Source: Bolinopsis microptera (Eukaryota > Ctenophora > Tentaculata > Lobata > Bolinopsidae). Taken from it: a DNA stretch of 64,000 nt. The stretch is taken from contig NC_087078.1 of the NCBI RefSeq assembly GCF_026151205.1, forward strand, positions 1,877,675 through 1,941,674, in the 5' to 3' direction. Numbering within the stretch: the stretch's first letter is position 1; each line of letters opens with the position of its first letter. The position numbers and the translations under genes are program-made. The notes below the pieces were generated by a model. It made no database searches. It saw only the letters and a program-made list of their open reading frames with translations, and was not told the origin of the DNA. Below are positions 8,952 through 52,543 of this stretch, piece after piece.

Positions 8952-10490
8952 TTACCAAAACCCATATTCATGGGTAGAGTGGACCGCTGCCAGTGTCTCT
9001 CTTTCCCAAACAAAAGGAAATGATATTAATTTGATTGACCGTTCTCAAATGCAAAATGATACCGAGAATGAAATCGGTCGCTCGCTTTTCCCATTCATTC
9101 ACGGCTTACGAATTGTAATAAATTTCGATTGATTACATCAGTCAGATGCTGTAAAAATCTCTTTGGGTTGCGTTCGGATCGATACCTAGTATTTCGGGGT
9201 AAGGGTAGTAGTTATTGCTTATTGAATTAGCTGAAGTTTATTGAATCTTTATTGCCGAGTACAGCTGCCTTTGGGTAGATCTTCTTAATCTATTACAATT
9301 GTAAATGAATGGGAAAAGCGAGCGACCGATTTCATTATCGGTATCATTTTGCATTTGAGAACGGTCAATCAAATTAATATCATTTCCTTTTGTTTGGGAA
9401 AGAGAGACACTGGCAGCGGTCCACTCTACCCATGAATATGGGTTTTGGTAAAATATCATCTCTTTTTGATTATAATGTCAGGGTACTTTATAAAGTCGAA
9501 ATATAAACTGATATCTTCATTAATTAATAAGGAGGAAGTTTCAACGATTTAGAAATTTTCCTTTAAAAACATTTCCTTGTGTTTAGGTAAGCATATCGGT
9601 CGATCACTGACTGAATATGCCACCTAATACTCATTCAAGTTGGCATTAAATTCATATATAATGACATTAAACTGTCGTGGCAAAGCAGAATTTGTTGGAA
9701 ATCACGAATGAGCAAAATTCTCACCTTTCGCACGTGCAAACTTTGAGCGGACGTTGCGTGCGCATCCAATATTGAATCGCCGTAAATTTTTTCATGTAAT
9801 TGTTTTATATATAGCTTGATAAGCATGCAAAGTTTCAAAGTATTTCAAGAAGAACTGTAATCACAACGGCACTCTAAAGTTGACAGAAAATGACGAAAAC
9901 AGCAATTTTCAGTGATTTTAGCAATTTTCTATCAATTTGGGCGTGTCCCCACGTGTGCAACTTTTCGATTTTCAACTTCAAAACTAGCCTAATGCACAAT
10001 TTATACCTATAGGAAGCAGAACTGAGCTCCTCAACTTAAGGCATGGCCCAACACCAGAGAATACTAAATCGCAAAATTGACGTTTTTATAAAATAATTCT
10101 TCAAAAAAGCACAAACTTCAATGACGAATATCTTTATGAAGGAGCAAGCTAGAAAAACTTTCCGGTAGATTTTCAGAATGCTTGAACAATTATCTAAGAT
10201 GAAAATCTCCTCAGATTTTGAATAAAATTACTCCTTAATGGTTTAAAATTAATTTTAAAAGTTATTACTTTGTCAAAAATCAAGTTTTAAAAACGGTTAA
10301 CTTGATGACGTCATCAAGGGGTGTTTATGACGTCAAATAATTTTTTTATACAATGTAAACTAAAGTGTAAACAATTATTTTCAAGACCTGTGGTCGGAAA
10401 TGGCTTTATCTTTTATACTTTTGAATCTATGGACAATTAAATACAGGCTACAATTGACTGGCAAAGCGTCTATCCCTGAATATGTATATA
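8948..10490 (+). mobile_element. foldback element X, copy 1
   Basis: Begins with an imperfect inverted repeat of about 150 bp: left arm 8948-9100, right arm 9303-9454. The arms carry ACCAAAACCCAT, GGGTAGAGTGGACCGCTGCC and GGAAATGATATTAATTTGA. The spacer matches 60590-60705. About 1 kb of non-coding sequence follows (9460-10480), including TTGATGACGTCATCAAG at 10301. The same order recurs at 37623-38975, and the 1-kb part recurs inverted at 59440-60400. Three copies at similar divergence show a dispersed repeat family. No transposase is encoded, and the open frames in the arms are mirror images of one another. Confidence 0.75.
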
Positions 10491-10496
10491 TATATA

Positions 10497-11040
10497 TATC
10501 ACGACAATCTGTCGTAAAACAGGGGTTCTAGAAAACCCATTTCCCGATACTCCTGAAACCTGAAACTTTTTTTGCAGTCGATTTGATCAACGTCTAGACG
10601 CCCTGAAAAATTTCAGATCTCTAACTCAATTTTAACATGGTTTTTAAGGCACCTGAATATGGCGATTTTGGGTTTTTTACCGAATTTCGTATAACAGTGC
10701 TGGCGAGTATTTTATGCAAATTTCTTAAAAATCTGAACATAACTATTTTTTATTCCTGTCATCTTTGACATCAAATTAGAATGTTTTGAACTAAAAATAA
10801 TTCTGCTTAACGACTTCCGATGAGTCTTAATGCCTGGAAAACTCCTGCCGGAGGCGGCGGCCTTCGGCCGCCGCCTCCGGCCGGAGTGCACGCTTCGCGT
10901 GCACAAAAGAGGCTTGTAACGTGTACCAAAGGGGGTATAATAGTAAAGGGGGTATAATAGTAAAGGGGGTATAATAGTAAATGGGGAACATAGTATACCC
11001 ACAATAAATGCAACGGTCGTGCTTGCCAGCACTGTGATAT
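10497..11040 (+). mobile_element. element Y, copy 1
   Basis: Starts CGACAATCTGTCGTAAAACA directly after the TATATATA tract that ends X. Related copies lie at 43838-44255 and 61271-61690. All share a CCCGATACTCCTGAAAC block, a TTTTAACATGGTTTTTAAGG block and GGGGGTATAATAGTA repeats (three in this copy, 10928-10975). An internal inverted repeat (ACAGTGCTGGC at about 10693, GCCAGCACTGT at 11027) could be the terminal repeat of a short nested MITE. It is non-coding. Confidence 0.65.
10847..10904. repeat. two adjacent GC-rich perfect hairpins with TTC loops
   Basis: The first hairpin pairs 10847-10862 with 10866-10881 (16 bp, loop TTC). The second pairs 10886-10893 with 10897-10904 (8 bp, loop TTC). 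Surrounding DNA is very AT-rich. The related Y copies at 44165 and 61607 lack this stretch, so it is an insertion specific to this copy. Confidence 0.85.
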
Positions 11041-29617: not shown

Positions 29618-29685
29618 ATAGTAATCTAATTCGGTGTATTTTTAAACGCTGATTCCGATCAATCACCCCCACAACGGTAAAAATG

Positions 29686-30328: not shown

Positions 30329-31534
30329 ATGCTGTTAGCAGTTGTAGCGATGCTTCTTATCGGATCTGGAGAATCAACAGATCGCTACGAACCGATGGAA
30401 GCTAGTGATCCCCAACTCAACACCTCCCCCAACGCAACAACAAACTTGGGTCGCTGTTACAATTACTGCACTGCTGATAGTGATGGATACTGTAACTTTG
30501 CCTTATGTCAAGCGATATCAAATTTCTCAGTTGAAAGCATGGCAGCTTGCAAAATGTATTGTTGGTACCACAAGAATTGCCAGTCGTTCTCTTTCAACTT
30601 TGAAACATCTGCTTGCAGCCTTTTCTACGCCTGTCAAAAAAGGCCGCAAGAAAATAATTCCTCTTTGACTCCTCTCATAGGAAATATTGGTTGCTTAAAG
30701 AATTGGGAGAAGAGTCCTTCGGTACCGTGCAGAACAATTGAAAACACTCTAAAAATAAGTCAGGATTCCGGAGGAGTTTTAATCAAAAACTTTGACCAAA
30801 GACTGTGCTTAGGATTTGGGAGGTCGATGGAATTGAAGTGGAAAGATTGCACATCGGCTATCCAGTGGCTTTTTGAGGAAAACCCTAATGGAACCGGAAA
30901 TGTGACCAGAATAAAAATCATTCAAGCAGATTCTCTGAGCAAATGCTTGGAACAAAGCTTAGACAGTTATTTTGACAAAGTGGTACTTTCAGTAGCTTTT
31001 TGTCAAGAGGATAATGAAAACCAGGTCTTTGAAATAACTAGTGGTACACTTTACAAGTTATCCAGCATGACATATTCCGAAGAAAATGTCAACAAATGTT
31101 TTTTTTCGATAATGAGTGAAAAAAGGTACATTTACCCAGGGTCTTCAGAAGATGTGCCCCTTAACCTCCTGAGAATTTTACTTCCTGTGGAGCACCTGGC
31201 TCTGTGCCAAAGAAACAAGTTCAAGGTTCCTAACGGACAGGTCGAAGGTAAATTACCTTTCTACTTACCGGGCAGCAACATCTCAGTCAGGTGCAAGCCC
31301 GGGTTTGGCTTCAAGGAGCTCGACTTTCAATCTGCTTTGAACATCACGTGTCAAAACGATAAGGCACGTGGTTTGCAGTGTGTGAAACCCAATTCAAGAG
31401 AGGAACATCCACTGATGGAAATACTGGTTTGTTGCAATGTCGGACAGGCCGTCCTGATCATCGTCTTGGGTGTCTTGGTTGTTGTGATGACAACAAAGGT
31501 ACGTGCATTGAAGGCTGACCTTCGCAATAAATGA
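30329..31534 (+). CDS. PAN/Apple + ricin-type lectin + Sushi single-pass membrane protein, copy 1
   Basis: An uninterrupted 401-codon frame. Residues 1-16 are a signal peptide. About 41-125 form a Cys-rich PAN/Apple-like module (CYNYC ... C-K-M-Y-C-W-Y-H-K-N-C-Q-S-F-S-F-N). About 135-270 resemble a ricin-B beta-trefoil (QRLCLGFGRS, a Q-W motif in TSAIQWLFEENP, then CQEDNENQVFEI). About 297-353 form a Sushi/CCP module (LCQRNKFKVPNGQ ... SVRCKPGFGF ... NITCQ ... LQC). About 365-392 are a transmembrane helix (VLIIVLGVLVVVM), followed by a short basic tail. Many N-x-S/T sites. The domains suggest a glycan- or cell-recognition receptor with little cytoplasmic signalling capacity. No intron interrupts it, unusual for such a multidomain gene. 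An AATAAA at 31526 overlaps the last codons and the stop. Confidence 0.8.
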   Translation: MLLAVVAMLLIGSGESTDRYEPMEASDPQLNTSPNATTNLGRCYNYCTADSDGYCNFALCQAISNFSVESMAACKMYCWYHKNCQSFSFNFETSACSLFYACQKRPQENNSSLTPLIGNIGCLKNWEKSPSVPCRTIENTLKISQDSGGVLIKNFDQRLCLGFGRSMELKWKDCTSAIQWLFEENPNGTGNVTRIKIIQADSLSKCLEQSLDSYFDKVVLSVAFCQEDNENQVFEITSGTLYKLSSMTYSEENVNKCFFSIMSEKRYIYPGSSEDVPLNLLRILLPVEHLALCQRNKFKVPNGQVEGKLPFYLPGSNISVRCKPGFGFKELDFQSALNITCQNDKARGLQCVKPNSREEHPLMEILVCCNVGQAVLIIVLGVLVVVMTTKVRALKADLRNK

Positions 31535-33150
31535 GGGGTTATACTTATAGATGTGGATACTGGCGGGGAGGTGATAATTGCTAGTATACATTTTAGGGCG
31601 ATTTTACGTATTAAATTATTCCGTCGTGAGTTATTGTATGTATCCACTGCTCAATCTATTTACCTTGATGTCAGAAGCTCAAATCTGGCCCCCTAAATAA
31701 GTGTACTTTAATAGTCTTGAGAACACAAGTGAAAAGAAGGGTCACAAGCCAGGAACAACCTGAGCTGTAAATTGTCATTGAAAGTCTAACTTCAATTCCC
31801 TTACATTGCCCCGTCATTACTGGTGGTCGGGTGCCTCCAAACTCTGGAACGTTACGAGCCCGAGACCTGAAGGAGGACGTGATGCAGGTGAGTACGAACC
31901 CACTTACTCGGGCTAACCAGGTTCGATGATGTTTCAAGAGCAGTCGTGACGCTCATGTAGAGCCTTAAATAGATACTCCTCCTAGGTTTAACTAAGTTTT
32001 TTTGGTCCACCATTGTAGATTACGGTAGTTTTCCATCAAACGGTCGGGTCTTACAATCTTTTCAAACGACTTTTCAATCAACTGATTATCGACCGATGAA
32101 GACACATATTCTTAAAGATATTTATCGCTATCGTATATCGCCAAGAATCATACTATGCTCATTCTATCGTTTTAAGGCCGTTTGTAAAATATTTTTAGTT
32201 GTGAGCATCGCGTCGTATCAACGAAAAAAAGTTTTTTCTTATCTTTCGAAGATATAAAATTTGACTCCTGTATGCTTTTATGGCCATAACTGAGTTGAAT
32301 TGTGGCTGATTTCATTTAGTCCATTGTTGCTGGCCTCCCTGAGCTGCCTTCCAGTCGTTTCTTTGTTTCCCTAGTTTTTTTTGCCTTCTTTGACTTTGAG
32401 CTGGCAGTGAGCCTATAAGAGGCTTAAGATTTTTTTTTCTCTCTATATCGGGGAAACGAAAAGTGCACGGTATAGAAAAATCTCGGTATAGAGAGGTTCA
32501 CATATTCACAATCCTAGGTACTAGTAGCCTCTAAAATAGGGAACATATTTTAAACTAATTACGACACTACAAATCTATTACATTTATTGAGAATTATGTA
32601 ATGTAACGTGATGGAAATATTTTAAACGAGCATATCCTGTCCAAACCCAGGATGCACTACATGAAGAATTCGTTGTAACTTTGTATGAAAAGCATTAATA
32701 TATGTACGTATTGTGTCGTATTGTGATGGAACACTGAAGTATTTAGTATGAGCTCTGACAAATCACATTTCTTGCACAACTCCGTCTGATTTTGGTGGAA
32801 AGAAGAGGCCCGTAATTATGTGGAGGTACCCGGTATAGATTGGTAAAGTTAAAATAACGTACTTTTAAATATCTCTGTACTTTTCATGTTTGAGTGTTTT
32901 TGAACGGTTGAACAAATTGTATAAATTTGAAATTAAAAACCAACAAAAATATATCAAAAACAAACAAATACACAGCCCTGTAACGTTGTTGTTGCCAAAA
33001 ACCCCTCGAAATAATAATAGGCACGTGACCCGTGCTGTGAGCTTAACTTAATTTTTCCTATAGATTAATAGACTTGAAGGAGTTTGCGAGCAGGTAAAAT
33101 AACAGCATCTTAAACAAATTAGTTATCAAGTCATAAAATCATAATACAGC
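31535..33150. other. intergenic, conserved between the two segmental copies
   Basis: No exon recognised. Contains TATAGAAAAATCTCGGTATA-type short repeats around 32440-32510. Nearly identical to 53755-55360, and the similarity includes clearly non-coding parts. Confidence 0.5.
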
Positions 33151-33535
33151 AGGTTACTGTTAGTAAACAGTATTAGTATTAGTAAACAGCAGTATTATTA
33201 ATAGTAAACTATTAGTAAACAGCAGGTTACTGTTAGTAAACAGTATTATTATTAGTAAACAGCAGTATCATTAATAGGAAACTATTATTAAACAGCAGGT
33301 TACTATTAGTAAACAGTATTATTATTAGTAAACAGCAGTATCATTAATAGGAAACTATTATTAAACAGCAGGTTACTATTAGTAAACAGTATTATTATTA
33401 GTAAACAGCAGTATCATTAATAGGAAACTATTATTAAACAGCAGGTTACTATTAGTAAACAGTATTATTATTAGTAAACAGCAGTATCATTAATAGGAAA
33501 CTATTATTAAACAGCAGGTTACTATTAGTAAACTC
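33150..33535. repeat. 73-bp minisatellite, expanded in copy 1
   Basis: Units starting CAGCAGGTTACTATTAGTAA recur at 33293, 33366, 33439 and 33512 (exact 73-bp spacing), after more diverged units from 33150. Copy 2 has a contracted version at 55370-55465. Confidence 0.95.
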
Positions 33536-33724
33536 TGATTAAGTCAGTTGATATCTTTTCTGTAAGTGTGTATTGTCAAGGATACGAATATGGCAGCATA
33601 TAACCACATTGGGACAAACATCATTATCATAAGCCAAGACGTTGCTGAGTGACAGTCTTTCTGTTTGATTTTTAATACTCGCGTCAATTGCTCATATCTG
33701 AGGGTAAGTTAACGTAAAATTTTA

Positions 33725-33847
33725 CAATCCCCAATATGGCATAATCCCACTCAGCTTTTATTGTAAATTAAAATACAATAAACATTGATGTTTACTGTAT
33801 TTAAATTTATATTAAAAGCTGAGTGGGATTATGCCATATTGGGGATG
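33725..33847. mobile_element. palindromic MITE-like element, copy 1
   Basis: Perfect 34-bp inverted arms at 33727-33760 and 33813-33846 (starting ATCCCCAATATGGCATAATC) around an AT-rich centre of 52 bases. The whole could fold into one hairpin. Same element at 55659-55778. It looks like a MITE or a cruciform-forming site. No target duplication is obvious. Confidence 0.8.
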
Positions 33848-33924
33848 CTTCACAAACACAAACAACAACATTAATCTCTGTGCCTCAACAATCATTGAAA
33901 GTTTTCCATCGTTGCATCTTTAAA

Positions 33925-34495
33925 AAAGCAAGAAATAGACTACAAATAGACTCTGACTACAAATAGACTACAAATAGACAACAAACGACTACAAATAGAC
34001 TACAAACGACTACAATAGAATACAAATAGACTACAAACGACTACAAACGACTACAAATAGACTACAAATAGAGTATAGACTATAAATATACTACAAACGA
34101 CTACAAATAGACTACAAACGACTACAAATAGACTACAAATAGACTACAAACGACAACAAATAGAATACAAATAGACTACAAACGACTAAAAACGACTACA
34201 AATAGACTACAAACGACTACAAATGGACTACAAATGGACTACAAATAGACTACAAATAAAATACAAGTAGACTACAAACGACTACAAATAGACTACAAAA
34301 AACTACAAATAGACTACAAATAAAATACAAGTAGACTACAAACGACTACAAATGGACTACAAATGGACTACAAATGGACTACAAACGACTACAAATAGAA
34401 TACAAATGGACTACAAATGGACTACAAACGACTACAATTAGACTACAAACGACTACAAATGGACTACAAATGGACTACAAATAGACTTCAAAAGT
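33925..34495. repeat. ACTACAAATAG/ACTACAAACG minisatellite
   Basis: More than 40 short units of 10-11 bp (GACTACAAATA, GACTACAAACG, GACTACAAATG) in irregular order. The second copy (55860-56485) has a different unit order, so the array is unstable. Confidence 0.95.
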
Positions 34496-34562
34496 TAAGA
34501 ACACTTTTTATCTATTGAAGCTATACGTTTTATGTCACATGTCAGGTCATCGAAAGGAATAG

Positions 34563-36480
34563 CTACACAGCACACAACTGTTGATATAAACAAAACCTTC
34601 GAGTGATGTCGCGAATATTATTAACTACGGCGTCTTGATCGTTGGTGAGCTCTTCCTCCATTAGCAGAAACTCTTCCATATTCGTCGTCTCAGAGGTAAC
34701 TTCATGCTCTTTCAGTCTTCTTATCTGAGTAAACATGTTTAAAAGCAGAAAATTGCATTTATCTCAGTATACTATCTATCAATATACAAATTTTTCAATT
34801 ATTGTAATTGTCGATTTACCTTTACAGCGAGTGGCTTGATAAAATTATCTCCACATTTTTTTCTCTCACTCGCTGTTAAGAACGGAAATTTTGCAATCAT
34901 AGTCAAATAAACAATTGTTGTAGAAACAAAAGACCTTCAGAACAAAGTATTTCTGAACAGAGATAGAAATTATTAGTTATAAACTGAAACAATGCTGAGA
35001 ATGAGACCAAAGAGATTCACCAGGATGTGAGACACCTATGTAATTATGTAAGTACATACTTACCCTCATATTAAACTTAGGAAAGTACTTAATATTTAGT
35101 AAGTTCTGGAATTAATTCCAGGAAATGGGCGCGTTATATTTAAAATAATTGTTGATACATTGGTGGTGTAACCGCGTGTGGTAGATTAACTTATATATAT
35201 ATATGAGGGTGGTAGATTAACTTATATATATGAGGATAACGTTTATATACGTCATCCCTTATAAACAATTATTATTAAATATATATGTATACCTTAACTG
35301 GCAATGAGTCACATAGGTCCTCCATCTCTAGCTTCTTATTTTGACGGACAGTGAAAAAGTTTTTTATGCCAATGATTTCACCCATTTTGAAACAAGAACT
35401 TAAGCCAAACAAATGTCCAAGTAGATTCAAAGTAATGAAAGTTTTAGAAGGAATAAACGTCATGCCAGCGTGGTCCGGAAGTACCCAGGAAACTTGGAGT
35501 TTTCCAGAGTGTGAATTTGCAATTTAATACCATGTGACATGGTTTACCATGGTAACCATGTGCCATATGGTACACCTCATACCTTCCGGGTCTTATATTG
35601 TTCACGTATCAGTGTAGTGTGTTTCATACACTGGCTTTCAGTCTTACAACCAGTGTCAACTGTGAATTGTGAAACTGCAGTTTTGATACAATTACAATAT
35701 GATAATGAAAGATTGATACACTGAAAATGAAATGAATGACATGATACATTCTCACGTGCTATAGAGTTTAGAAAAAATCCCATTATTCAGTTTAACTATT
35801 CCTGTCAGATCTCAGATAATGTTCAATTAAAATTAATTGGATTTAATTGATGTACAGTGTAATTAATGTTGAATACTGTTAGTTGTGGCGACGCAACCTC
35901 TCAGAATGACTCTAGAATAATGTATGTAAACAGTATTTATGATGGCCGTTTTAAAAGGATAAACAATAGTCGAGTGATTAGTAAACGTTTAAAAATGACT
36001 AAGAGTAAATACAGCCATTCTTTGGGCACATAGGTCAAAATCGGTCCGAGCCGACTGAGAGGGTTAAACTCGAGTAAGGGAGCCTTTTATCTCCGTAGGA
36101 TCTGGTGGTAGTGAGATGGAACCATATTATTGTAAAGCCGATACATCCTGATCTAGAAAATTCTAAAAATCTCCATCTTTCCACTTTCCACGTACAAAGT
36201 ATTCATTGCAGTTTTTAGTGACTACACTCATATAGTGCCTCCTGAGTCCGATGATTTATCAGTTCCAGTCATTCTAGCTAATTGGCCGATATGATTTAGT
36301 TTTGGTTTTAGGTTGTTAAAATCATGGTTGAACAGATTGAACTAGTGAATGTTAACACTTCATAAAATTCAGGTAAATGACAGTGTTACATGAGACTTCA
36401 CTTAAAATCAAAATTAAGAAATTAACCTTATGAGTCAGAGGCGCATTCGATGTTCCCTTCTCTTTCTTTTTAGCTGGCAT
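34563..36480 (-). pseudogene. unidentified multi-exon gene, copy 1, with a broken exon
   Basis: Five minus-strand exon candidates are conserved with 56553-58472. They are 36480-36427 (ATG start, MPAKKKEKGTSNAPLTHK, donor phase 0), 35674-35583 (TGCKTESQCMKHTTLIREQY), 35492-35293 (FIPSKTF ... NKKLEMEDLCDSLPVK), 34934-34820 (FPFLTASERKKCGDNFIKPL) and 34724-34563 (IRRLKEHEV ... MEEFLLMEEELTND ... TAG). Exon 4 here lacks one A (CAAATAAAC against CAAATTAAAC), which shifts its frame. Not all junction phases fit, so exons may be missing or misplaced. KKLEMDDL and EEFLLMEE faintly recall ABCC transporters, but no transporter core is seen, and I do not assign a function. Confidence 0.4.
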
Positions 36481-37622
36481 CTCTCTCTCTCCCAACCTAA
36501 ATTAAACCAGCTCTAAAATTCGAGCTTAACTTGGAAAAGAGACAGATCAAATAGAGCTATTAACGAAGCTTAGCTGAGAAAAGTTTACGGAAAGAATTTC
36601 ATGCAATTTCAATCACATTCATAAGCCCATAACCAGAACACAGAAATCTTATTCAAAATCACTAATTTGTTAGCGCACACATCACTAAAACCAAAAGCTC
36701 AAAATAAAGTTAGATAACGGCTCTTACACAGATCAGTACGCCTAATTAGGACCCGAAATAATACACTGATCACTCACGTTGGGCTAAATAGAAGAAGGTC
36801 ATTTGATGCTCACGGAAATGGAGTTGGTTAAGAGTAAGATTGGTTAACATGGATATAGGTTCCACAGGGAGGTAATTACCCGAACCAACTGCAGGATGGA
36901 TCGTTTGTTCTCATACCTGACTCACATAAGGCACGTTAAGTCATTATGTATATATATTTTGAAATCCTTGAAATCCTTTTTTGAAATCCCTTTTATGGCG
37001 GTCACTTGGAGAAATGCGGATTGCTGGAGCTTGTTGTATGTCTTCATATACTGAAGGATACACAATAAATAGCTCTCCCGTGTGGCCGTTGGCTCTAACA
37101 GATAATAGGCTGTTCAGAATCAGTATATCACTATAACGATCAATAGCCAATTTTTAATCGAAAACTAGATGATTCAGTTTGATAAACAAGGATAGCTGTT
37201 GTGTCCTGGATATGAATATAAATTAAGACACACACACAATGAACCAAAAATGTCTACTGGAGCGTCATTAATTTTAGTCTGGATAATCATGGAAAATTTC
37301 ACCAGCATTCACAGTAGAGGATCTGAAAATTAGCTGAGCGAAGTATAAAGGGAAATGTGCGCGTGATGCATTGAGGCCAAAAAGAGAACAAGTGCTTGTT
37401 AAGAATAAATAATATAGATGGGTCTACCTGCTAGACGCATTGGCAGTCAATATATATTTCAATTATAAATTGATGACCAATTATATAATGGCAAACGGAA
37501 ATTCAGTCCAAACCCTGAAAAAACATGACTAAAGATTAGTTTTACCTTGATTAGATTGAAAAGCACTATAGGTTATAGATGTAACAGATTCCGGACCGTG
37601 CCTAGTACTATAATATATATAT
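36481..37622. other. no gene recognised
   Basis: 5' flank of the minus-strand gene and the diverging right end of the segmental duplication. A minus-strand frame at 36944-37150 is not preserved in copy 2 and is not convincing. A GAAATCCTT repeat lies at 36958-36990. Confidence 0.45.
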
Positions 37623-38975: not shown

Positions 38976-39045
38976 ATATGGACACGTTCATTGAAGTTTG
39001 AGGATATTGGTAAATATTAGTGACCCTACTGAATGGCACGATGAT

Positions 39046-42000
39046 GTAAAATGTGTCACACTATGAAACTATATAAACCCTCTAACCCTAAGATAATCGT
39101 TTCATCATCTAGATAAACTTTGTCGCATAACGATATCTTTATCAGACGATAAGATATCGCTTAAATGCAGCCGGCAGTGAGTTGTAAACTTTGTCACACT
39201 ATAAAAACGTGACGGAGTTTATATGGACCCCTTGTTACCGTGTTTGACCAAATTTTCGAATTTCCAATTCATAGAATAGCTGTATATGACTATTATCTAC
39301 ATATTTAGCGACTTTTTTCCTTAAATGGTAGCACCATGTAAACTCCGTCACACATTTAAGAAATTTATATGAGGGATGTTTATGACATCCTGACAAGAAA
39401 TGCCGAATAGTCTAGCATTATTTTGTGAGCTGAATGTGTTTGGAATTGTTCACATATTTCATTGTTATACGCAAATACAAATACAGAAGGCAGAAATAGG
39501 TAAATTTAGTCACATAAATTTGTATGATATCTCAACATGTGTGAAATTGAGTAAATATTAGTATACCAACTTAAACGCCCTATATTACGTACTATGGATC
39601 AGTTAACAATATTTCAACCATATGCCGGTCATATGAATTATTATATGGCAGTGATATGTTAACATTGGATAAATTTCAACACCTGAACAGGGTAAAAATT
39701 TGTAAATTTCGTCACAAAAAAAATATTATAACTTTATTTGCTCCGTGTTGGCAAAATAACTTATTTATCGACATAGTGATGGTGATAAAGTAACATTATA
39801 TACTAATTGAGGTATGATTCTTCAAAATAGGGGCAAGAAATGTAAATTTCGTCACATCAGCCATTGCATTAGTTAGATAGATTTTCTTTCATATCAACTG
39901 CCCTTATTATAGTTGGAATGGATTTATACAGGAAATATAGAAACCCATGCCCATTTTTCATCACATTGAAATTATACTGTTGGGGCAGGAAAAGTAAATT
40001 TTGTCACATTTCGGTAAATTAGTGATATCAAACTCAGCATTGTTAAACTTGAGTTCTGATTTGCTGAAAAATAACCTACCAATAATTATTAATTCAGAGA
40101 TAAGGAAATATAGAAACCCATGACCATTTTTCATCACATTGAAATTATACTGTTGGGGCAGGAAAAGTGAATTTCGTCACATTTCGGTAACTTAGTAAAA
40201 TTAAACTCAGAATTGTTAAACTTGAGTTCTGATTTGCTGAATAATAACCTACTAATAATTTATGGAAGAATATTGAATTCTAATCGGGGTATGGTTCTTC
40301 AAAATAGAGTCAAGAAATGTAAATTTCGTCACATACGTCATTGTAAAATTTAGATACATTTTCTTTCACATCAACAGTCCTAATTATAGTTTGAAATGAT
40401 TAATTCAGAGACAAAGGAAATATAGAAACCCATGACCATTTTTCATCACATTGAAATTATACTTTTGGGGCAGGAAAAGTGAATTTCGTCACATTTCGGT
40501 AACTTCGTATAATTAAACTCAGAATTGTCAAACTTGAGTTCTGATGATCTGCTGAATAATAACCTACTTATAATTCCTGGAAGAATATTGAATTCTAATC
40601 GGGGTAGAAATGTAAATTTTGTCACATACGTCATTGTAAAATTTAGATACACTTTCTTTCACATCAACAGTCCTAATTATAGTTTGAAATTATTAATTCA
40701 GAGATAAGGAAATATAGAAACCCATGACCATTTTTCATCACATTGAAATTATACTGTTGGGGCAGGAAAAGTGAATTTCGTCACATTTCGGTAACTTAGT
40801 AAAATTAAACTCAGAATTGTTAAACTTGAGTTCTGATTTGCTGAATAATAACCTACTAATAATTCCTGGAAGAATATTGAATTCTAATCGAGGCATGTTT
40901 CTTCAAAATAGGGTCAAGAAATGTAAATTTCGTCACATCAGCCATTGCATTAGTTAGATAGATTTTCTTTCATATCAACTGCCCTTATTATTATTGTGAC
41001 CATTTTTACATCAACTGCCCTTAACTTGAATCAGCTCTATCCGTGCATCGTCCTTATATACAGTTTTCCCGCCTTCCAAACCAAAATCAGATATAAATGA
41101 TTTCGGCAATTCACCCAAAATTTTAAATTCCATATAATGTGACAGAATTTACATCATTTCCCAATAAGTGCATGTATTTGCTAACTTTTCAAAACAACAT
41201 ATTTTAGGGCTATGATTAGAAGAAAATCATCAAATAATGAGTTGAAAGGATTTTGAGGACACCTCACAGTAGAAAAGATGTATCGTATTCTGAGTGTGAC
41301 AAAGTTTACGAAATATTGCCTTAAAACCGTTCGATCCCTGCCCTTTAGCCAAATGTTGTATCATAATTGTTAGAATGACCTAATCTACTATATTTTAAAC
41401 CAAAAAATACTAATTGGGCAGCTATGGTTAACACAGTCAACAGTCCTAATTATAGTTTGAAATTATTAATTCAGAGATAAGGAAATATAGAAACCCATGA
41501 CCATTTTTCATCACATTGAAATTATACTGTTGGGGCAGGAAAAGTGAATTTCGTCACATTTCGGTAACTTAGTAAAATTAAACTCAGAATTGTTAAACTT
41601 GAGTTCTGATTTGCTGAATAATAACCTACTAATAATTCCTGGAAGAATATTGAATTCTAATCGAGGCATGTTTCTTCAAAATAGGGTCAAGAAATGTAAA
41701 TTTCGTCACATCAGCCATTGCATTAGTTAGATAGATTTTCTTTCATATCAACTGCCCTTATTATTATTGTGACCATTTTTACATCAACTGCCCTTAACTT
41801 GAATCAGCTCTATCCGTGCATCGTCCTTATATACAGTTTTCCCGCCTTCCAAACCAAAATCAGATATAAATGATTTCGGCAATTCACCCAAAATTTTAAA
41901 TTCCATATAATGTGACAGAATTTACATCATTTCCCAATAAGTGCATGTATTTGCTAACTTTTCAAAACAACATATTTTAGGGCTATGATTAGAAGAAAAT

Positions 42001-43650
42001 CATCAAATAATGAGTTGAAAGGATTTTGAGGACACCTCACAGTAGAAAAGATGTATCGTATTCTGAGTGTGACAAAGTTTACGAAATATTGCCTTAAAAC
42101 CGTTCGATCCCTGCCCTTTAGCCAAATGTTGTATCATAATTGTTAGAATGACCTAATCTACTATATTTTAAACCAAAAAATACTAATTGGGCAGCTATGG
42201 TTAACACAGTCAACAGTCCTAATTATAGTTTGAAATTATTAATTCAGAGATAAGGAAATATAGAAACCCATGACCATTTTTCATCACATTGAAATTATAC
42301 TGTTGGGGCAGGAAAAGTGAATTTCGTCACATTTCGGTAACTTAGTAAAATTAAACTCAGAATTGTTAAACTTGAGTTCTGATTTGCTGAATAATAACCT
42401 ACTAATAATTCCTGGAAGAATATTGAATTCTAATCGAGGCATGTTTCTTCAAAATAGGGTCAAGAAATGTAAATTTCGTCACATCAGCCATTGCATTAGT
42501 TAGATAGATTTTCTTTCATATCAACTGCCCTTATTATTATTGTGACCATTTTTACATCAACTGCCCTTAACTTGAATCAGCTCTATCCGTGCATCGTCCT
42601 TATATACAGTTTTCCCGCCTTCCAAACCAAAATCAGATATAAATGATTTCGGCAATTCACCCAAAATTTTAAATTCCATATAATGTGACAGAATTTACAT
42701 CATTTCCCAATAAGTGCATGTATTTGCTAACTTTTCAAAACAACATATTTTAGGGCTATGATTAGAAGAAAATCATCAAATAATGAGTTGAAAGGATTTT
42801 GAGGACACCTCACAGTAGAAAAGATGTATCGTATTCTGAGTGTGACAAAGTTTACGAAATATTGCCTTAAAACCGTTCGATCCCTGCCCTTTAGCCAAAT
42901 GTTGTATCATAATTGTTAGAATGACCTAATCTACTATATTTTAAACCAAAAAATACTAATTGGGCAGCTATGGTTAACACAGTCACAAAAATGTGACATT
43001 TTTTATATTATAGTGCCTAAAAACAATAAATTGTATTTCTGAGCCGTGTATATGGAAGTATGGGTCACGTGGCTAATGTCCAGAACTTCTGAACACGCTA
43101 TTTTTTTGGTTTACCAATATCCTTAAACTTCAACATGAACGTGTCCATTTACTATTTCGTATCATTTTGTGACGATGTTTACATCAACTGCCGGGCTATA
43201 CTTCAATCAACTGTATCCGTGTATCGTCCTCATATAGAGTTTTCCCGCCTTCCAAACCAAAATCAGATATAAATGATTTCGGAAATTCACCCAGAATTTT
43301 AAATTCCATATAATGTGACAGAATTTACATCATTTCCCAATAGCCAAGTGCATGTATTTCAAGTTAACTTTTCAAAACAACATATTTTAGGGCTATGACT
43401 GGCAGAAGAACTATCAAATAATGAGTTGAAAGGGTTTTATGGACACCTCACAGTAGAAAAGAGGTCTCGTATTCTGAGTGTGACAAAGTTTACAAAATGT
43501 TGCCTTAAAGCCGTTCGATCACTGCCCTTTGGGCCTACATTGTATCATAATTGTTAGATTGACCTAATCTACTATATTTTAGACCAAAAAATGCTAATTG
43601 GGCAGCTATGGTAAACAATGTCACAAAAATGTGACATTTTTTACATAATA
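39046..43650. repeat. dispersed GTAAATTTCGTCACA motif series
   Basis: The motif GT(A/G)AA-N(5)-GTCACA occurs forward at 39046, 39184, 39338, 39500, 39702, 39842, 39994 and about 40166, 40318, 40478, 40611, 40769 and 40921. It occurs inverted (TGTGACAGAATTTAC, TGTGACAAAGTTTAC) at about 41134, 41298, 43315 and 43478. Each 773-bp unit adds two forward and two inverted copies. The overall polarity is rightward in the left part and leftward in the right part, mirroring the TIRs. This is the layout expected of sub-terminal protein-binding sites. Confidence 0.8.
40665..42985. repeat. three identical 773-bp tandem units inside Z
   Basis: The landmark CCTAATTATAGTTTGAAATT occurs at 40672, 41445 and 42218, exactly 773 bp apart, and I see no differences between units. 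The last unit departs from the pattern at about 42985 (AACACAGTCA then CAAAAATG). A shorter, diverged repeat of the same block lies to the left (about 39930, 40090, 40400). Confidence 0.95.
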
Positions 43651-43837
43651 GTGCCTAAAAGCAATACATTTTATTTTTGAGCAGTGCATATGGGAGTATG
43701 GGTCACGTGGCTAATGTTCAGAACTTATGAACACGCTAGATTAATATATGTTAAAATTAAACCACTATCGTCAAAAACGCTGTTTTAGAAATTTACCAAT
43801 TTCCTCAAACTTCAATGAACGTGTCCATATATCTTCA

Positions 43838-44257
43838 CGACAATCTGTTGTAAAACAGGGGTTCCAGAAAACCCACTTCCCGATACTCCTGAAACATGAT
43901 TTTTTTTTACTGTCGACTTGGACAAGGTCTAGACGCCCTGCAAAGTTTCAGATATCTAACTCAATTTTAACATGGTTTTTAAGGCACCTGAATATGGCGA
44001 TTTTGGGTTTTTTACCTAATTTCGTATAACATGCTGGCGCGTATTTTGCGCAAATTTCTTAAAAACCTCCATATAACTATTTCTTATTCCTGTCATCTTT
44101 AACATTGAATTAGAATGTTTTGAACTTAAATGTATCTGCTGAACTACTTTCGAAAAAGTCTTAATGCCTGGAAAACAATAAAGGGGATATAATAGTATAG
44201 GGGGTAAATAGTATTGTGAATATAAGGGCGACGGTAATGCTTGCCAGCATTGTGATA
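43838..44257 (+). mobile_element. element Y, copy 2
   Basis: CGACAATCTGTTGTAAAACA, then the same block order as 10497-11040, with shorter GGGGGTATAATAGTA repeats and without the GC hairpins. It abuts the left end of the second segmental copy at 44258. Confidence 0.7.
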
Positions 44258-44594
44258 TATTACAACTCAGCTCTTGGTAAGCTATAAGCCGTCTTATAAT
44301 TGCATTAATGATCACTGATCAGCCAATAAAAAGTCGGTATAGCACAGCTTTCGGCAAGCTATATTTATAAGCCCTCTCAAAAAAGTTTTGTTTTCATTGA
44401 TTCGAGTCTGTTTGTTTCAGCGTCACGAAAAATTTCTAAAATTACAGATTCCCTCCCCCAATTTGTATTCCTTTTCAGCAAACTTGGTCCGAGAACTTCA
44501 AGTGTTCAATTTATTTATTTTATAATAGATCCAGTGTATACACAACAACTAGTTACATTATTAATCAAGCCTTAAATTGCTTATATTAGAAATT

Positions 44595-45000
44595 AACGCA
44601 CGTTTTTAACACGATCCTACTACTATAAGGGTATAAAGTGATTTTAAAGTTGAAGGTCACAATTTGTTGGAACATAACGCACGTTTTTTAAAACGATCCA
44701 ACTACTATTATAAAGGTATAAAGTGATTTTAAAGTTAAAGGTCACAATTTTGGAACTTGACATACGTTTTTAAGTCACGATCCTACTACTATAAGGGTAT
44801 AAAGTGATTTTAAAGTTAAAGGGCACAATTTGTTGGAACTTGACGCACGTTTTTTAAAACGATCCAACTACTATTATAAAGGTATAAAGTGATTTTAAAG
44901 TTAAAGGTCACAATTTGTTGGAACTTGACGCACGTTTTTAACACGATCCTACTACTATAAGGGTATAAAGTGATTTTAAAGTTAAAGGTCACTCAATTTG
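44595..45000. repeat. minisatellite, five units, copy 2
   Basis: Counterpart of 25390-25790, with units anchored on ACGATCC(T/A)ACTACTAT and spacings of about 80-90 bp. Individual units differ from copy 1 (AAAACGATCCAACTACTATT variants), so the array has evolved independently. Confidence 0.9.
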
Positions 45001-45373
45001 TCGCTTCACACCTACAATGGATCGGCTTCGAGTTAGAATTAGATCAATCAGACCTTGTAACACGATGCACTACTGGGTCGCACTTTTTAAAGATTTATGA
45101 CCGAGATTTCCTAAGTGTGTGGCCTCTCCCTTTATGCTTATTAGGGGTCTTACCCTCATGTCTTTCCAGGAGGGTCTCCTCAATTCAGATGGATATTCTG
45201 TTTCGTTTAAATTGAGTCAATAACTGGAAGCATACAATTTTAAAATTCTATCCTATTCACCAATCGAGAGTATCAATATCAAAGCAACAAATTGTTTTCG
45301 TTGGCAAACGTAATAAGTTGATGACATTTTCGGCAAGCTATGTTAACAATTGATGTCTGAATTACCGAATCGG

Positions 45374-45606
45374 TCATTGCTGAATGCTGATGTATCGTAA
45401 AGGGTTTGACACTTTTGTGCATGGCATGTGCAACGTACTAATACACCTATAACGCGCTTTTTCTTTTTTTAAATCTAAAATTTGGGAAAATACCACCCCG
45501 CTAAGGCAAACATTTTTCCGTAGTAGTACTACTACTAGTAGTACTGTGTATCGGCCCGAAAGCCATCCAACATCAGAAGAGGGTGCGTTTTTAAGTTTTG
45601 GAGCAC
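45374..45606 (-). CDS. possible last exon of the lectin-like gene, copy 2
   Basis: Same length and phase as 26193-26425, with replacement differences only at about two codons (for example T to A after the splice and N to K later). In this copy the intron before it has been invaded by the 3.4-kb LINE. Confidence 0.35.
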
Positions 45607-45877
45607 CTGCTGCGATCTCATATCCCCGCACTATACTATTATGAGTATAGTGCTTCCAGACTTACAGATGATGAAGATTAGCTAAAGCTATGCGATATGA
45701 TTATTAGTCCAGATATCTATGTTAAGTTAAGTTATATGATGTGTAATCGATGATGTGTAATCGAATTCGCGCACCGCGGGCGCGTTTAGATAAAAGGGCC
45801 TTGAGATCTGATTTTGTCCGAGCGTTCTATTTGCAGTGATAGTAGGAGCTTATTAATGACATCGCACATAACCTTTC

Positions 45878-48800
45878 GTAAGGTTCGTAAAAAAGCTGTA
45901 TCTGAATATTATTCTGACAAGTTTCTTGAAACTCAGGGAAATTCCAAGAAAACCTGGGAACTGATAAATAAAATTCGTGGCAAACAGAAACGTGATATCA
46001 GACCTATATTTACCATAGACAATGAAAAGATAACTGATCGCAGAGTTATAGCTAATGAATTCAATAAGTATTTTGTATCCCTAGCATCTAACCTTAATGC
46101 AGCCTACACAGAACTAGAAGAGATACAAATAAATCAGCTTCCAAGTTTCTGTGACTTCTTACCTAAATCGAATACAGCTAATATATATCTACATGACTGC
46201 TCACCTGAGGAGGTGGCTAAGATCATATCGGAACTTAAGAATGGCAAGGCTAGCGACATACCAGTACATATAGTAAAGGCAGTATCAGGCAAAATTAGCC
46301 CACTACTATCGGTATTGTACAACGAATGTATGCAACAGGGATTTTTTCCAGACGACCTAAAAGTAGGTAAAATAAGTCCAATATATAAGAAAGAAAATGC
46401 TGAGCTTCTTGAAAATTACAGGCCTATCTCAACCTTAGCGATATTCGGTAAAATACTTGAAAAAATCATATTCTCCAGGCTTTACAGTTTCTTTCAGTCG
46501 CAAGGATTATTATATGAAAATCAATATGGCTTTAGAAAAAATCACTCGACAAGCCATGCACTCAACTTCTCTGTCGACTACATTGAAAAATCTTTAAGAG
46601 ATAAAAATCACGTACTAGGCATCTTCATTGATTTAAGTAAAGCTTTTGACACAATCTGTCATGATAAACTGCTTAAAAAACTGAATGATTATGGAATTCG
46701 AGGGACTGCAAATAAATTGATAGCCAGTTACCTTTCTAATAGACAGCAATATGTTTCAGTACTTGGAGAAGAATCCGAAAAACTGTCTGTAATATTTGGT
46801 GTTCCTCAGGGGTCAGTATTAGGTCCCTTGCTTTTTATTATCTACATCAATGAAATATATAGAGTATCAGACCTAGGTAAGTTTATACTTTTTGCCGATG
46901 ACACCAACATATTTGTTGTAGATAAATGTATAAAAACACTTTACTGCAAAGCTAATAAAATTCTTAAACTTGTTCATCAGTATATGAAGAGTAACTTGCT
47001 GCATATCAACATAAAGAAATGTTGTTATATCCACTTTAAGCCGAACTGTAGAAATGAACCAGATTCAAACACCAATGAATTAGAACTGACACTAAATAAT
47101 ATAGTAATTAAAAAGGTGGAGGAAACTAAGTTTCTTAGAGTCATTATTGACCAAAAACTGAACTGGGATGCTCACTTAAGAGCGTTAAACCGTAAATTGA
47201 AATGTGAGATAGGTAGACTATGTGGAATTAGACGCTGTGTACCTAAAAAACTATATAAGGACCTGTACCACACCCTTTTTGAATCACACCTATGTTATGG
47301 AATATCTGTTTGGGGAGGTGTATCAAATAATAAACTAGAAGCCATATTTAAAACACAAAAGAAATGCATAAGAATTCTCTTTGGTGATAATGATGCGTAC
47401 TTCAATAAGTTCAAAACATGTGCCAGAGTAAGGCCTATCACTAGGGATAAGACCGGTAAAGTTATCAAGCAGATGTTAGGCAAAGATTTCTTTGAACTAG
47501 AACACAGTAAACCAATCTGTAACGAGTATAACTTCCTGACTGTCCACAATCTTCATAAGTTACACTGTTTACTGGAAATGTTTAAAATTAATAAGTTCCA
47601 ATCACCAGTCTCAATGTTCTCTTTATTCAACAGGTCACCAAGACGAGACAACTACTTCATCCCACCCACTCCATCCTCACTATTCATCTATCAATCAACT
47701 AGTATTTGGAATCACTGCCGTAAGTCAACAAGTGAAATAGACTTCTCCACTCCCATCAGTATATTCAAGAATAATCTTAAGAAATCTTTGTTAGAACTAC
47801 AATCTAAATATGACCGACAACTTTGGTGCAGTTACAACTTTGATGCAAATGAATTATCATTGAAATAGGTTGATTTAGTAAACATAATCATATGAGTAAA
47901 CCACGGTGTTATTGCAAAAAACCATGACAAGGGTATCAGACCTATATTAATCTAAGAGACGACACAAAACAAATCATCATACAACAAATTTTAAAATCCT
48001 GCGGCACAGGATCCTGTTGTTTTCCTACTCTACCTCTCCCAAACCCCTCTCTCCTTCTCCTCTCTTCAGGTTTATTCTTCAATTTTTTTAAAATTAGATA
48101 GCAGATATATTTTCTTTTAAATGAAGTAATGGCATTATACATTGTTTGTTATCGTATGTATGTTGTGTATAGTGTTTGCTGACTGGGTATATGCTATATA
48201 TTTTGAGGCTCACGACGTCTCGTCCCATGGATGGAGTTGTAGGCTGAGTATGTGTTCAAATCTCCTTACTTCGTATGGTGAAACATTGAAAGGTTTGCCT
48301 TAGCCTTTGGGACGAGTGTTTGCCCACCGGGGATCCAAATATATGATTATCATGGACATTACTTTGACACATAAACTAATCAAACGACTTTAATGATTCC
48401 AGAAAATTTTACTAACTGCATTTAGCTAGTTTATAGTAAATACACACGATCGCAGAATAGAGGAGCACAATTGGGTTCCTTGTTCTGCGACTGTGTTTCC
48501 TCGGTGGGCCGACAGGTTTTTGTTGTGTAGTAGTGCTGGGGGAAAAAACGCTTTAACTATCAATGAGAGTACAAATTTTTAATTCTTGACCTTAGTGCCA
48601 CAGTTTCTGCTATGTGGTAAAAACAAATTTATAGTTAAACGTTATATATTGTAGAAGGGCATGATTTACTCACATCACTAAGCATCTGGATGGATAATTA
48701 GCACACAAAGATAAACTGACCTTTAAACATGACCACCAGCTATACCACGTAACCATAGCTCCGAAATAAATAAATTGCTCTACATAGAAACATCTGGCCT

Positions 48801-49280
48801 GATCCTATCACATTGTGGTCCCCAGGGGTTCGGTAAAGCCCTTACAGGCAACTGGGTCCTTTTACCAGCCACAATAAAATTGATCATGCCAGTACTGTCA
48901 TAAACTGTAACCAACTATTTAAAAATTAGATATCTTTTGCTAAATTTTAAATTTTAAGTCATAGAGCAATCTTCTAAATTTCAAAATCTTTAAGAATTAT
49001 ATTTTACCCTAACTATGATGTGGTGGCATTTCATACTTAACTAAATTTCAACTTTGAAAGTAAATAGATTATTAGTGACAACAAAATTATAGTTTAAGAC
49101 ATCCATTCTGCATTGTGTTTCCAATATTAGAATTTATGATATGTATTGATTGAATAATTGGTAATAAATTTAACTTTTGTTTTATTAACTTTTGTTTTAT
49201 TAATGAGGCTTCTCACAGCGATCGGCGAGATGCGCTACTGTGTCGCGCCGAGCTGCCAATGAATTGACATCGTCAATTAA
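45878..49280 (+). mobile_element. 5'-truncated LINE, 3.4 kb, present only in copy 2
   Basis: Flanked by an 8-bp target duplication AACCTTTC (45870-45877 and 49281-49288). Copy 1 has the unoccupied site at about 26665. The coding frame runs to 47868, about 660 codons inside the insert. It encodes a reverse transcriptase with NYRPISTLAIFGKILEKI, YGFRKNHST, F-I-D-L-S-K-A-F-D, GVPQGSVLGPLLF and the catalytic FADDT (46890-46904). The endonuclease domain is missing, so it cannot move on its own. About 1.4 kb of non-coding 3' sequence follows, ending in a hairpin tail (AATTGACATCGTCAATT) at 49261-49278. It sits antisense in the last intron of the lectin-like gene. Confidence 0.9.
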
Positions 49281-49361
49281 AACCTTTCAGTGATATATAT
49301 ATATATATATATATATCTGAAGCGAAATCTTGATAAAAACTATAATATTAAAATAAATTAC

Positions 49362-49799
49362 CTGCACCAAATGCCGTAATTTCTTTCATGTGAATACATG
49401 CTTTATTTTCGTAGCTCCCTTGGTAATGTCTCACCGTCAGCTTCACTTCATTTCCACACTTCAGATGACAAAGAATTCTATACGTTTGGCCCTCTATAGT
49501 CAAAACAGAACTGATTTTGAGAACTCCGCAGAGATTATCAATTCCTGTATCTGCGTTGACTACAAATACTTTCGTATCCTGCATACGAGCGCGAGCAGCA
49601 CTCGAGTCGAGATGATGAGACTGGATGATCACCACTTCAAAGAAGCAGAAGACTTCATCAAACTTTATTTTGAACCACAAATCAGTGTTCCATCCACACT
49701 GAGTGTGCGATTTTGTTCCCAGATCACCGTCAGTAGCATGCTCTGCCTTATTTGCATTGAAAGTGCTGCTTTGGGAAACTGATGCGGGTTCAACTTTTT
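49362..49799 (-). CDS. F5/8C-type (fucolectin-like) lectin domain exon, copy 2
   Basis: Same exon as 26739-27170, with identical splice signals. It is longer by two codons (an in-frame AR repeat from GCGAGC, 49588-49593) and differs by a handful of replacements (N to T, M to I, A to V, P to L, K to E). The frame is intact, so the domain could still be made. The downstream intron contains the 3.4-kb LINE. Confidence 0.7.
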
Positions 49800-49928
49800 C
49801 TGAAAATATTTCAATTATTAATAGTAATACGAAGTATTTAAGAGCTGCGGAACATAATTTCAGATTGAAGCCATGCAATATATATAGTATCATTGTCACT
49901 GCACTTAAAAATTTTTATGTTTACGTAC

Positions 49929-50091
49929 CTGTGCATGTAACACCATTTTCCACCATCAAGAACATCAGAAGATAAAGAAGGATATTCCATCTTGCCGTGA
50001 TAGGTCGGATAACACAAGTCATCATCTAAGTTATTCGAATCAGAAGGATAAAAAGAAAGCCAAGTTATTCGGTTGAAATTGTATTTGATGC
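49929..50091 (-). CDS. probable exon upstream of the lectin domain, copy 2
   Basis: Counterpart of 27294-27458, open through the same 55 codons with a few replacements (L to F, P to S). Same donor and the same unresolved phase conflict with the lectin exon. Confidence 0.4.
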
Positions 50092-50416
50092 CTGTGTGGC
50101 CATCGAAGTATTATATTTACAACTTTATAAGGTTTAAAACAGACAGCGGTGTGCCGTTCAATACTAAATGAAAAGCAATGAGACAAAAAACTAATGATTA
50201 ATTAATGGGTAATACCAATGGGTCAACGATTTGGGGCATTATTCATTAGCTTGCAAAGAGCCATAAGTCACAAATAAATTGGCCATAACTGAGTATTATG
50301 CTACTAGTATCTTTTTGACTGAAATGTAAAATAACGGAGCTTGTTGGAAGAGTGCAGTAATTCGTTTAACTACAACTATGATAATAATTACCATATATAG
50401 TTATAGTTTTAGTTGT

Positions 50417-50539
50417 AGCGCGATGCGTTACTGTGCCGCGCCGCGCACTTAATAAGGCTTCTCACAGCGACACTGGCTAGATCGGCGAAATGCGCTACTG
50501 TGCCGCGCCGAGCTGCCATGAATTGAAATCGTCAATTAA
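50417..50539 (+). mobile_element. 123-bp SINE-like element sharing the LINE 3' tail
   Basis: Inserted between 13-bp target duplications TAGTTTTAGTTGT (50404-50416 and 50540-50552). Copy 1 has the empty site at about 27775. The last 75 or so bases (AGGCTTCTCACAGCG ... CGTCAATTAA) match the 3' end of the 3.4-kb LINE. Internally a CGATGCG(T/C)TACTGTGCC block occurs twice, so it is dimeric. No tRNA-type promoter boxes are obvious. Confidence 0.8.
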
Positions 50540-51036
50540 TAGTTTTAGTTGTGTTGGACACAATACTGCTCTAGTACGGGGTATAAGAAAAGTTATAATA
50601 TTAGTATTGTTATTCCATGACTTATCCTGGCCAGAGTTTATCAACTTTAACGTTCGGTAAGGAAATGGTATTGTTTATGATGTAGGAAGCTGGAAAGTAT
50701 ATTAATTATAGATTTATAAGCGATGATCTTCTAAATTGCACTGTTTCAACTCTCTAAGCGATTACTGTAACCTGCCACACGGAGATGACATTATCATGAG
50801 AACAGTTTAAAAGTTTGCTGCTAACTGCTGCAAATGGCGCGCGCACGCGACAGCAGCAGTTATATAGCAGCAGTCAGTAGCACGCCTTGCCCTTGACTTG
50901 TGAAACAAGCGCGCCCGCAGTGGCACGAAAGCACATGGTTAAGTAAAGAGTCCTGTTGTTCATTGCATCAATTGCTAGCAACCAATTTTACTTACCTACT
51001 GCTAGGTCAGAACTAACTCCTAATTCAGGTATCTTA

Positions 51037-51148
51037 CCTGGGGACCTCAGGCTATCATTACATACATGTTCATACATGTTACATACATGTTCATAAACAA
51101 TAGAGATTCGGTGGATCGAATGACAGGCTAAGCGCGGCCCAGTAATAT
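51037..51148 (+). repeat. short dispersed repeat W, copy 3
   Basis: Counterpart of 28482-28562, carrying extra ATTACATACATGTTCATA repeats in its middle and a GATC insertion before GAATGACAGGCT. Confidence 0.75.
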
Positions 51149-51537
51149 AACAGGTATCTTCTTCCATAAATTGCGCGTAAATACCAGAGCTTGCATTCTT
51201 TGTTCTTGCAGCGCCACTTTAAAAAGTTAAATCCCGTGCCTGTGCAGTGGGCCTGCATGTGCATGAATACAGTTAATTATTTCTTTTATGAGTGTGGCGG
51301 TTGTCACTTTGTACGCTCCCACTATAAATCGCTCGCCCAAATAAAAAAATTCTTGTGAAAAAGGCCCTGATCTGAAGGTATGATACTGATAGTAATCTAA
51401 TTCGGTGTATTTTTAAACGCTGATTCCGATAAATCACCCCCACAACGGTAAAAATGTTTTCCTGGAGAGTTATGGGCAAAAAACCATCTTGGTCACGTGA
51501 CAGGCTAGTAAAACACGAATTCGATTGTTTAGGGCTC

Positions 51538-51610
51538 GGGTTAGAGTAATAAGGGTTGTGGTTAGGGTTACGGATAGCTTCGGGGTTAGGGTTAGGGTTA
51601 GGGTTGGAAT
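51538..51610 (+). repeat. interstitial telomere-like TTAGGG tract, copy 2
   Basis: Same degenerate-to-perfect GGGTTA tract as at 29935-30000. Confidence 0.9.
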
Positions 51611-51669
51611 CAGGGTATATGTAAAACCGTATTTTTCGGCTTCAAAACAATAAAAACAAAACTAAAAGT

Positions 51670-52263
51670 AGGGGGTGCACGATAAAAATAAACTTGCTCG
51701 GATTTAAAAATTTTTTGTACCATTGTTTTCTAGAGACTGTGAGAATTTTCACAATACCAAATTTGTCATACCTTTTTGGAAAGATCAGTGAGTTTCGCCT
51801 AGGTGCCATATTTGATGGTGCGCGGCTTTTGGAGCAAAAGTAGCTGTAAAAGTTGCGTAATTTGACCAAATTTGACCAAATTCGTTGATTTTTGTTGTAT
51901 TATTTGGATATATCTTCGGTTCCTTGAATGAGATCATTCTGAAAATTGGCGACGACCTTCCAATAGGGCTTTCACAAATGTCCGAAAAATTTGGTGGATA
52001 TCGGAGTTGATATAGTGATCAAAATGGGGCAAAATGCGCTGCTTTTAGCTGTAACATAATGTCTGATGGTTGGATATGCTTTAAATTTTTCGGACACTTT
52101 CCTTGTAAGTCAATGAGTAAGCTAACCAATTTTTGTTGCAATCGGAGGTCGGGAAGTATACTGAATATCTATTTGTTTGAAGAAAATTGTGCTGGCCGAA
52201 ATAAGCGCTAAAAAACCATCCTACAGTCGGCACGCGCGGCTCACTGTCGATGGCGCACTACCT
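51670..52263. mobile_element. 594-bp non-autonomous DNA element present only in copy 2
   Basis: Flanked by ACTAAAAGT at 51661-51669 and 52264-52272, with the empty site in copy 1 at about 30047. Ends are weakly inverted (AGGGGGTGCACGAT against AGGTAGTGCGCCAT on the opposite strand). An 8- or 9-bp duplication with AGGG-type ends suggests a hAT- or Mutator-like non-autonomous element. No coding frame is convincing. Confidence 0.65.
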
Positions 52264-52543
52264 ACTAAAAGTCACGTGATAATTTTCGGGCGAGCGAATT
52301 ATTAAAATAAAAGTCCACTTTGTATTGTCCCTGGGCGAAACTTTCTTTCATGGATTTATTGTGATTGTTGCCCCTCTTTAAGGCCTAAACACCACAGAAA
52401 ATTTGAGTGCTTTTATATCAAGCTATTATAGCGGCGATGCTATAGGCATAGCATTATAAGTGGTTTTTTATGTATTTGGTATTGGTTTATTTTACTACAT
52501 TTCTGAGTTTTGAAACTTCAGCTAAGTTTGCCCAAGAAAAAAG

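Follow-up and report, generated by a model that had tools for sequence, protein, structure and literature searches.

The 64,000-nucleotide stretch of Bolinopsis microptera DNA analyzed here (the window) harbors a segment of ~4.85 kb, termed Z, which lies between two other repeats, X and Y, and is bounded by terminal inverted repeats (TIRs). The question raised by this locus is what kind of element Z is and what the many repeats in its protein-less interior are for. The features referred to below are, in window coordinates:

38979..43827, plus strand: element Z at full length, a non-autonomous TIR transposon (from TIRs, TA flanks and target composition, and an empty site)
38977..38978, no strand: left TA target-site duplication of Z (from the empty site and the TA flanks of copies)
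43828..43829, no strand: right TA target-site duplication of Z (from the same evidence)
38979..39015, plus strand: left TIR, its inner end (GTAAAT..) resembling the first half of the internal motif
43791..43827, minus strand: right TIR (from repeat comparison)
39045..40937, plus strand: left array of GTAAA-N4-GTCACA sites pointing inward from the left end, many with GGCA 10-11 nt upstream
43168..43494, minus strand: right array, sites pointing inward from the right end; from 40995 onward, the tandem units add more minus-strand sites
40664..42985, plus strand: three tandem 773-bp units, 99.9% identical
43092..43148, minus strand: degenerate internal duplicate of the right terminus of Z (repeat families D11 and D14)
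10480..10497, no strand: TA tract in a related X-Y repeat without Z, a paralogous empty site (from alignment)

The window also contains a large broken duplication (25053-37467 and 44255-59406, local identities ~86-99%), one copy of which includes a reverse-transcriptase ORF at 45814-47868. Paired 11-bp tandem arrays of AAATAGACTAC are located at the two duplicate copies (33933-34494 and 55862-56489). Positions 1-610 form a tandem repeat of GAGGGGAG, and the first 2 kb show a strong G skew. Elsewhere in the assembly, a glutamate-receptor stretch of 367 aa gave, among the 60 listed of 363 distinct Protein Data Bank sequences, its three highest scores with chains of ML032222a iGluR from the comb jelly Mnemiopsis leidyi (155-156 bits, the next being 142).

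An earlier note had described Z as a TIR-bounded segment of about 4.85 kb without a transposase, and this description was borne out. The TIRs share 97% identity over 36 nt (37 nt counting the outermost T/A), the termini are TGGACACG, and a frame scan of 38979-43827 showed no wholly contained open frame longer than 72 codons. The other genomic copies that the note had proposed to look for were found in abundance: Z is one of several hundred, with TIR ends dispersed by the hundred (1,010 ends in the whole assembly). From C1 to C4:9.14 Mb, 37 Z-type TIR pairs were found to span 2,012-8,862 bp (median 3,140 bp), Z being longer than typical copies owing to expansion of its 773-bp units. Miniature inverted-repeat elements (MITEs) are by definition under about 0.8 kb; Z resembles them in being non-coding, in its TIRs and in its high copy number, but not in size, as the 37 pairs show. 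The copies sampled in the following analyses were not a random draw, L001-L008 having been taken from the top of 40 scored candidates (1,112 in all) and the others from exact TIR matches on C1-C4, so that conservation of TIR positions 1-25 is built in.

The junction of X and Y without Z at 10480-10497 had been taken to show that Z is an insertion into the TA tract. The two repeats are joined without Z near 10.49 kb and align through the TA tract at 983/1136 positions, and copy L039, judging from its flank letters, apparently occupies the corresponding TA tract in a further X-Y repeat. A single X-Y pair could not by itself discriminate insertion from the converse history, i.e., an ancestral 4.85 kb that was subsequently deleted at 10.49 kb. 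The hundreds of dispersed TIR ends and the 19 distinct insertion sites with TA on each side leave the converse history with a negligible probability; it is counted as refuted. The target duplication, which was also to be defined from copies and flanks, is TA: it was present on both sides in 20/20 complete copies, representing the 19 sites, and adjoined 56/57 distinct ends. The two positions before it were enriched in T (50/57) and A (50/57), indicating a target close to TATATA. The outermost TIR base, outside GGACACG, is variable (T 45, A 7, C 3, and G 1 among 56), whereas the TA farther out is nearly fixed, so that AT is not the duplicated sequence. Support independent of the TA-rich flanks was obtained from copy L040, which interrupts a reverse-transcriptase fragment. 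Excision of Z with one TA restored a continuous frame, ...MIAIYKALIRPHLEYC..., and was the only one of the three joins tried to do so, while taking out none or four bases left stops upstream of the MIAIYKALIRPHLEYC motif.

A TA duplication is the hallmark of Tc1/mariner elements, and both the TIRs and the TA duplication of that superfamily (IS630) are present in Z. P and Galileo elements generate duplications of about 8 bp, and membership in this group was rejected as Z is flanked by TA only. Membership in CACTA was likewise rejected, the termini being TGGACACG next to TA instead of CACTA termini with a 3-bp duplication. The PHIS/ISL2EU group, for which the cited passages give a duplication of AT within A|AT|T (PMC4482050), was rejected on the nearly fixed TA and the target near TATATA.

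A tripartite site, GGCA-N6/7-GTAAA-N4-GTCACA, recurs within the repeats of Z. In the window, TGTGACRAARTTTACA at no more than two mismatches gave 26 matches, all within Z, as compared to a mean of 0.40 and a largest value of 3 in shuffles. In the genome, exact TGTAAANNNNGTCACA occurred 2,254 times versus 128 for the reversed control, and of the 100 listed occurrences (C1 to 16.03 Mb), 85 were either clustered or adjacent to a Z TIR, the remaining 15 being elsewhere. At C1:14850779-14853280 (G000), TGTAAACGCAGTCACA is present three times, 1,243 bp apart; this is a different repeat that fits the Z motif pattern by chance. In the 13 sites outside the tandem middle of Z, TAAA is fully shared and GTCACA nearly so, the flanks are mostly unrelated (column identity ~0.24-0.42, a few pairs sharing 24-31 nt), and GGCA is found at -10/-11 from GTAAA in 8/13 sites, where its frequency in Z would predict ~0.12. 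With one core mismatch allowed, 21 copies contained 10-33 sites each. These followed a mirror order, plus-strand sites in the left part and minus-strand sites in the right with a single switch, in 355/396 cases, a figure that favors the mirror since the best switch point was chosen for each copy. In Z itself, 27/33 sites fit, and the misfits are mainly due to the 773-bp units, each of which contains sites of both directions. Neighboring sites are most often 120-180 bp apart, and a smaller group is spaced by less than 20 bp. The left TIR runs at its inner end into a degenerate site, GTAAA-N5-GTGAC, and the right TIR is without the second half of the motif. This conserved mirrored array, which goes beyond the earlier note, is the most informative part of Z.

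Base-level variation was evaluated in 54 of the 57 distinct ends (33 left and 21 right); the alignment rule left out the right end common to L012, L014, L045, and L046, as well as L016 and L018, the last an end with an odd interior that looks like a diverged left end truncated by other sequence. Variation amounted to 0.44% (15/3380) in the core, 0.22% (2/920) in GGCA, and 1.22% (15/1231) in the spacer, in comparison with 2.04% (507/24807) elsewhere in the Z ends. Relative to the rest, variation is thus reduced ~5-fold in the core and ~9-fold in GGCA, with weaker constraint on the spacer. The neighbors of the sites are unconstrained (2.33% upstream and 2.65% downstream), and variation is slightly raised, relative to the rest, in the bases directly downstream of the core (176/6643, P = 0.003); P values of this rate comparison treat cells as independent though the copies are related. 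The more cautious test, which counts single-copy changes per column, gave 8 in 132 core columns versus 267 in 1,599 others (P = 0.003). Under a looser site definition, core variation was 0.66% at left and 0.18% at right ends versus 2.11% and 2.37%, respectively. When the mask was shifted circularly 5,000 times at each end, the rate never fell as low as that of the core, and the reduction was observed at every consensus base of both ends. As GGCA was picked by its position in Z and not by its conservation, its low rate checks the result independently.

The depletion of variation in core and GGCA gives the appearance of purifying selection on the sites although nothing is encoded, and suggests that the conserved sites are what let Z move or persist. 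The protein-less element seems to have been filtered over many rounds of copying for their retention. It is very improbable that the repeats are functionless tandem duplications passively accumulated: the 773-bp and ~300-bp units are plain duplications, as that explanation would have it, but it accounts neither for a core and a GGCA several-fold less variable than the rest beside neighbors that are not, nor for a core common to sites whose flanks are mostly unrelated. Any protein aiding the spread of copies would be compatible with such selection.

End recognition is indicated by two features: the sites are mirrored with respect to both ends, and a degenerate site is found at the inner end of the left TIR. 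Both the selection and the geometry are read directly from the copies, the identity of the binder and its role in pairing being inferences: the sites are most likely binding sites of a transposase, or of its helper, acting in trans. The transposase or a TNPA-like helper would load along both arms of Z, and the loaded protein would pair the two arms. Unequal exchange or slippage within the arrays may alter site number and length. Counted against end recognition are the small number of binding sites in known Tc1/mariner ends, far below the 10-33 seen here, the half motif at the right TIR, the mirror fit of just 27/33 in Z, and the outcome of a partial search, in which no transposase with Z ends was found.

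That search addressed the autonomous partner with the same ends that the earlier note had asked for; none emerged, TIR pairs having been covered over ~30% of the genome. Profile searches of the genome gave 13 matches for DDE_3, 123 for DDE_1 (150/219 candidates scored), and 114 for DDE_Tnp_4; Transposase_1 gave no match in the genome, and its control was also silent. Inside the 37 TIR pairs (C1 to C4:9.14 Mb), no DDE_1, DDE_3, or DDE_Tnp_4 match was found, the matches counted where TIR places were listed on C1 to C4 being 5 for DDE_3, 38 for DDE_1, and 25 for DDE_Tnp_4. Within 10 kb inward of unpaired ends, one DDE_1 match (0.33 expected) and one DDE_Tnp_4 match (0.22 expected) were observed. 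In L080, a diverged Z right end is followed inward, after ~3-4 kb without sites, by the DDE_1 fragment, and the DDE_Tnp_4 fragment lies 3.5 kb inward of the TIR at C4:750162; given the chance expectations, the two cases are neither proof of a partner nor excluded as one. Five TIR pairs of 7.1-8.9 kb were rejected as partners, being Z copies with insertions at different places; a reverse-transcriptase ORF is present in each of the five. In a domain scan of 14 frames of at least 200 aa from seven Z copies, none matched a transposase family, and five had no retroelement-domain match. A retrotransposon-like insert inside a Z copy (L042:2740-4830 and 4834-8232) has a first frame (697 aa) matching a 2OG-Fe(II) oxygenase domain and a second matching a reverse transcriptase plus a weak PHD finger. 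A single genomic position (C7:19919975) has the 36-nt TIR with C or G as the next base, and hence no second family with the same full-length TIR was seen. L061, L062, and L063 represent a young mariner-like family with a 398-aa open frame, copies ~99% identical, and ends TACAGGGTG...; these different ends led to its rejection as the partner.

Drawing on analogy with plant elements, the chief rival to end recognition is a protein that would counter silencing. The array would in that case bind a protein shielding Z from silencing, in the manner of VANC on VANDAL elements, and not the transposase. Z has the dense, oriented, element-specific motif array of the VANC type, and the account of VANC21 motifs cited here, which describes them as dense, TE-specific, oriented, and multiplied by tandem repeats (PMC5735166), is comparable. 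The motifs of Z are mirrored, as expected for end recognition, while that account describes VANC arrays in one orientation (PMC5735166), and shielding from silencing is considered rather unlikely. A further possibility, judged improbable, is that a host chromatin or looping protein docks on the array and helps copies persist or be expressed. In favor of it, an association of chromatin loops with transposable elements has been reported in ctenophores (PMC12221973), and the site spacing, with its 120-180 bp peak and its group below 20 bp, points the same way; against this, the loop motif given there is GC-rich with two CpGs (PMC12221973), whereas that of Z is AT-rich, and 85 of the 100 listed genome matches (C1 to 16.03 Mb) belong to site clusters or adjoin a Z TIR, leaving 15 elsewhere. 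The loop motif was accordingly rejected as the same motif. Also unlikely, though still to be reckoned with, is a more far-reaching reading, in which a sequence-specific ctenophore protein different from the transposase, for anti-silencing or chromatin architecture, uses the arrays as mobile docking platforms and Z spreads by its binding sites alone. If true, hundreds of oriented site clusters would have been seeded through the genome.

Taken singly, these features have precedents: non-autonomous TA elements, transposons with internal tandem repeats, and motif arrays are all known. Similar to Z, non-autonomous Tc1/mariner (IS630) elements have TIRs, a TA duplication, an AT-rich target, and no coding capacity; Z differs in its length (median 3.1 kb), its 10-33 internal oriented sites, and in that no transposase partner was found. 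Galileo and Tetris, foldback-like elements of Drosophila, likewise have non-coding copies with internal tandem repeats, and those of Galileo hold extra transposase binding sites, as stated in the Tetris paper citing Marzo et al. 2013 (PMC4079207). Tetris, as described in the passages cited, has 8-10 bp duplications and repeats within long TIRs (PMC4079207), in contrast to the TA and 37-nt TIRs of Z. CACTA elements (En/Spm, Tgmt*) share with Z many short subterminal motifs, bound by TNPA-like proteins. The source cited, so far as quoted here, describes these motifs as cis-determinants for transposition and provides in TNPA a precedent for a helper protein (PMC2613891). CACTA elements differ from Z in their CACTA ends, 3-bp duplications, and direct plus inverted motifs in subterminal regions. 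VANDAL elements with VANC arrays resemble Z in TE-specific oriented arrays evolving by tandem duplication (PMC5735166), but they are protein-coding elements of Arabidopsis with the motif YAGTATTAY, and the cited description contains no mirroring (PMC5735166). Coral CMITEs are non-coding with a conserved internal region, as is said in the portion cited (PMC2872659); unlike Z, they are linked to piggyBac-like transposons, and it is the internal region that is conserved rather than dispersed motif cores (PMC2872659). In the portions of the open-access literature available, no report was found of a long protein-less element with mirrored, tripartite, constrained sites; a named family may exist.

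In an element without proteins, base-level constraint reveals which sites are important for its spread, and does so from the sequence by itself. Z thereby yields an exact, testable motif, GGCA-N6/7-GTAAA-N4-GTCACA, together with hundreds of natural copies differing in site number. If the binder is the transposase, Z would be an animal TA-inserting element with many-site mirrored ends comparable to the ends of plant CACTA elements; if it is not, Z would be an animal parallel of VANC targets.
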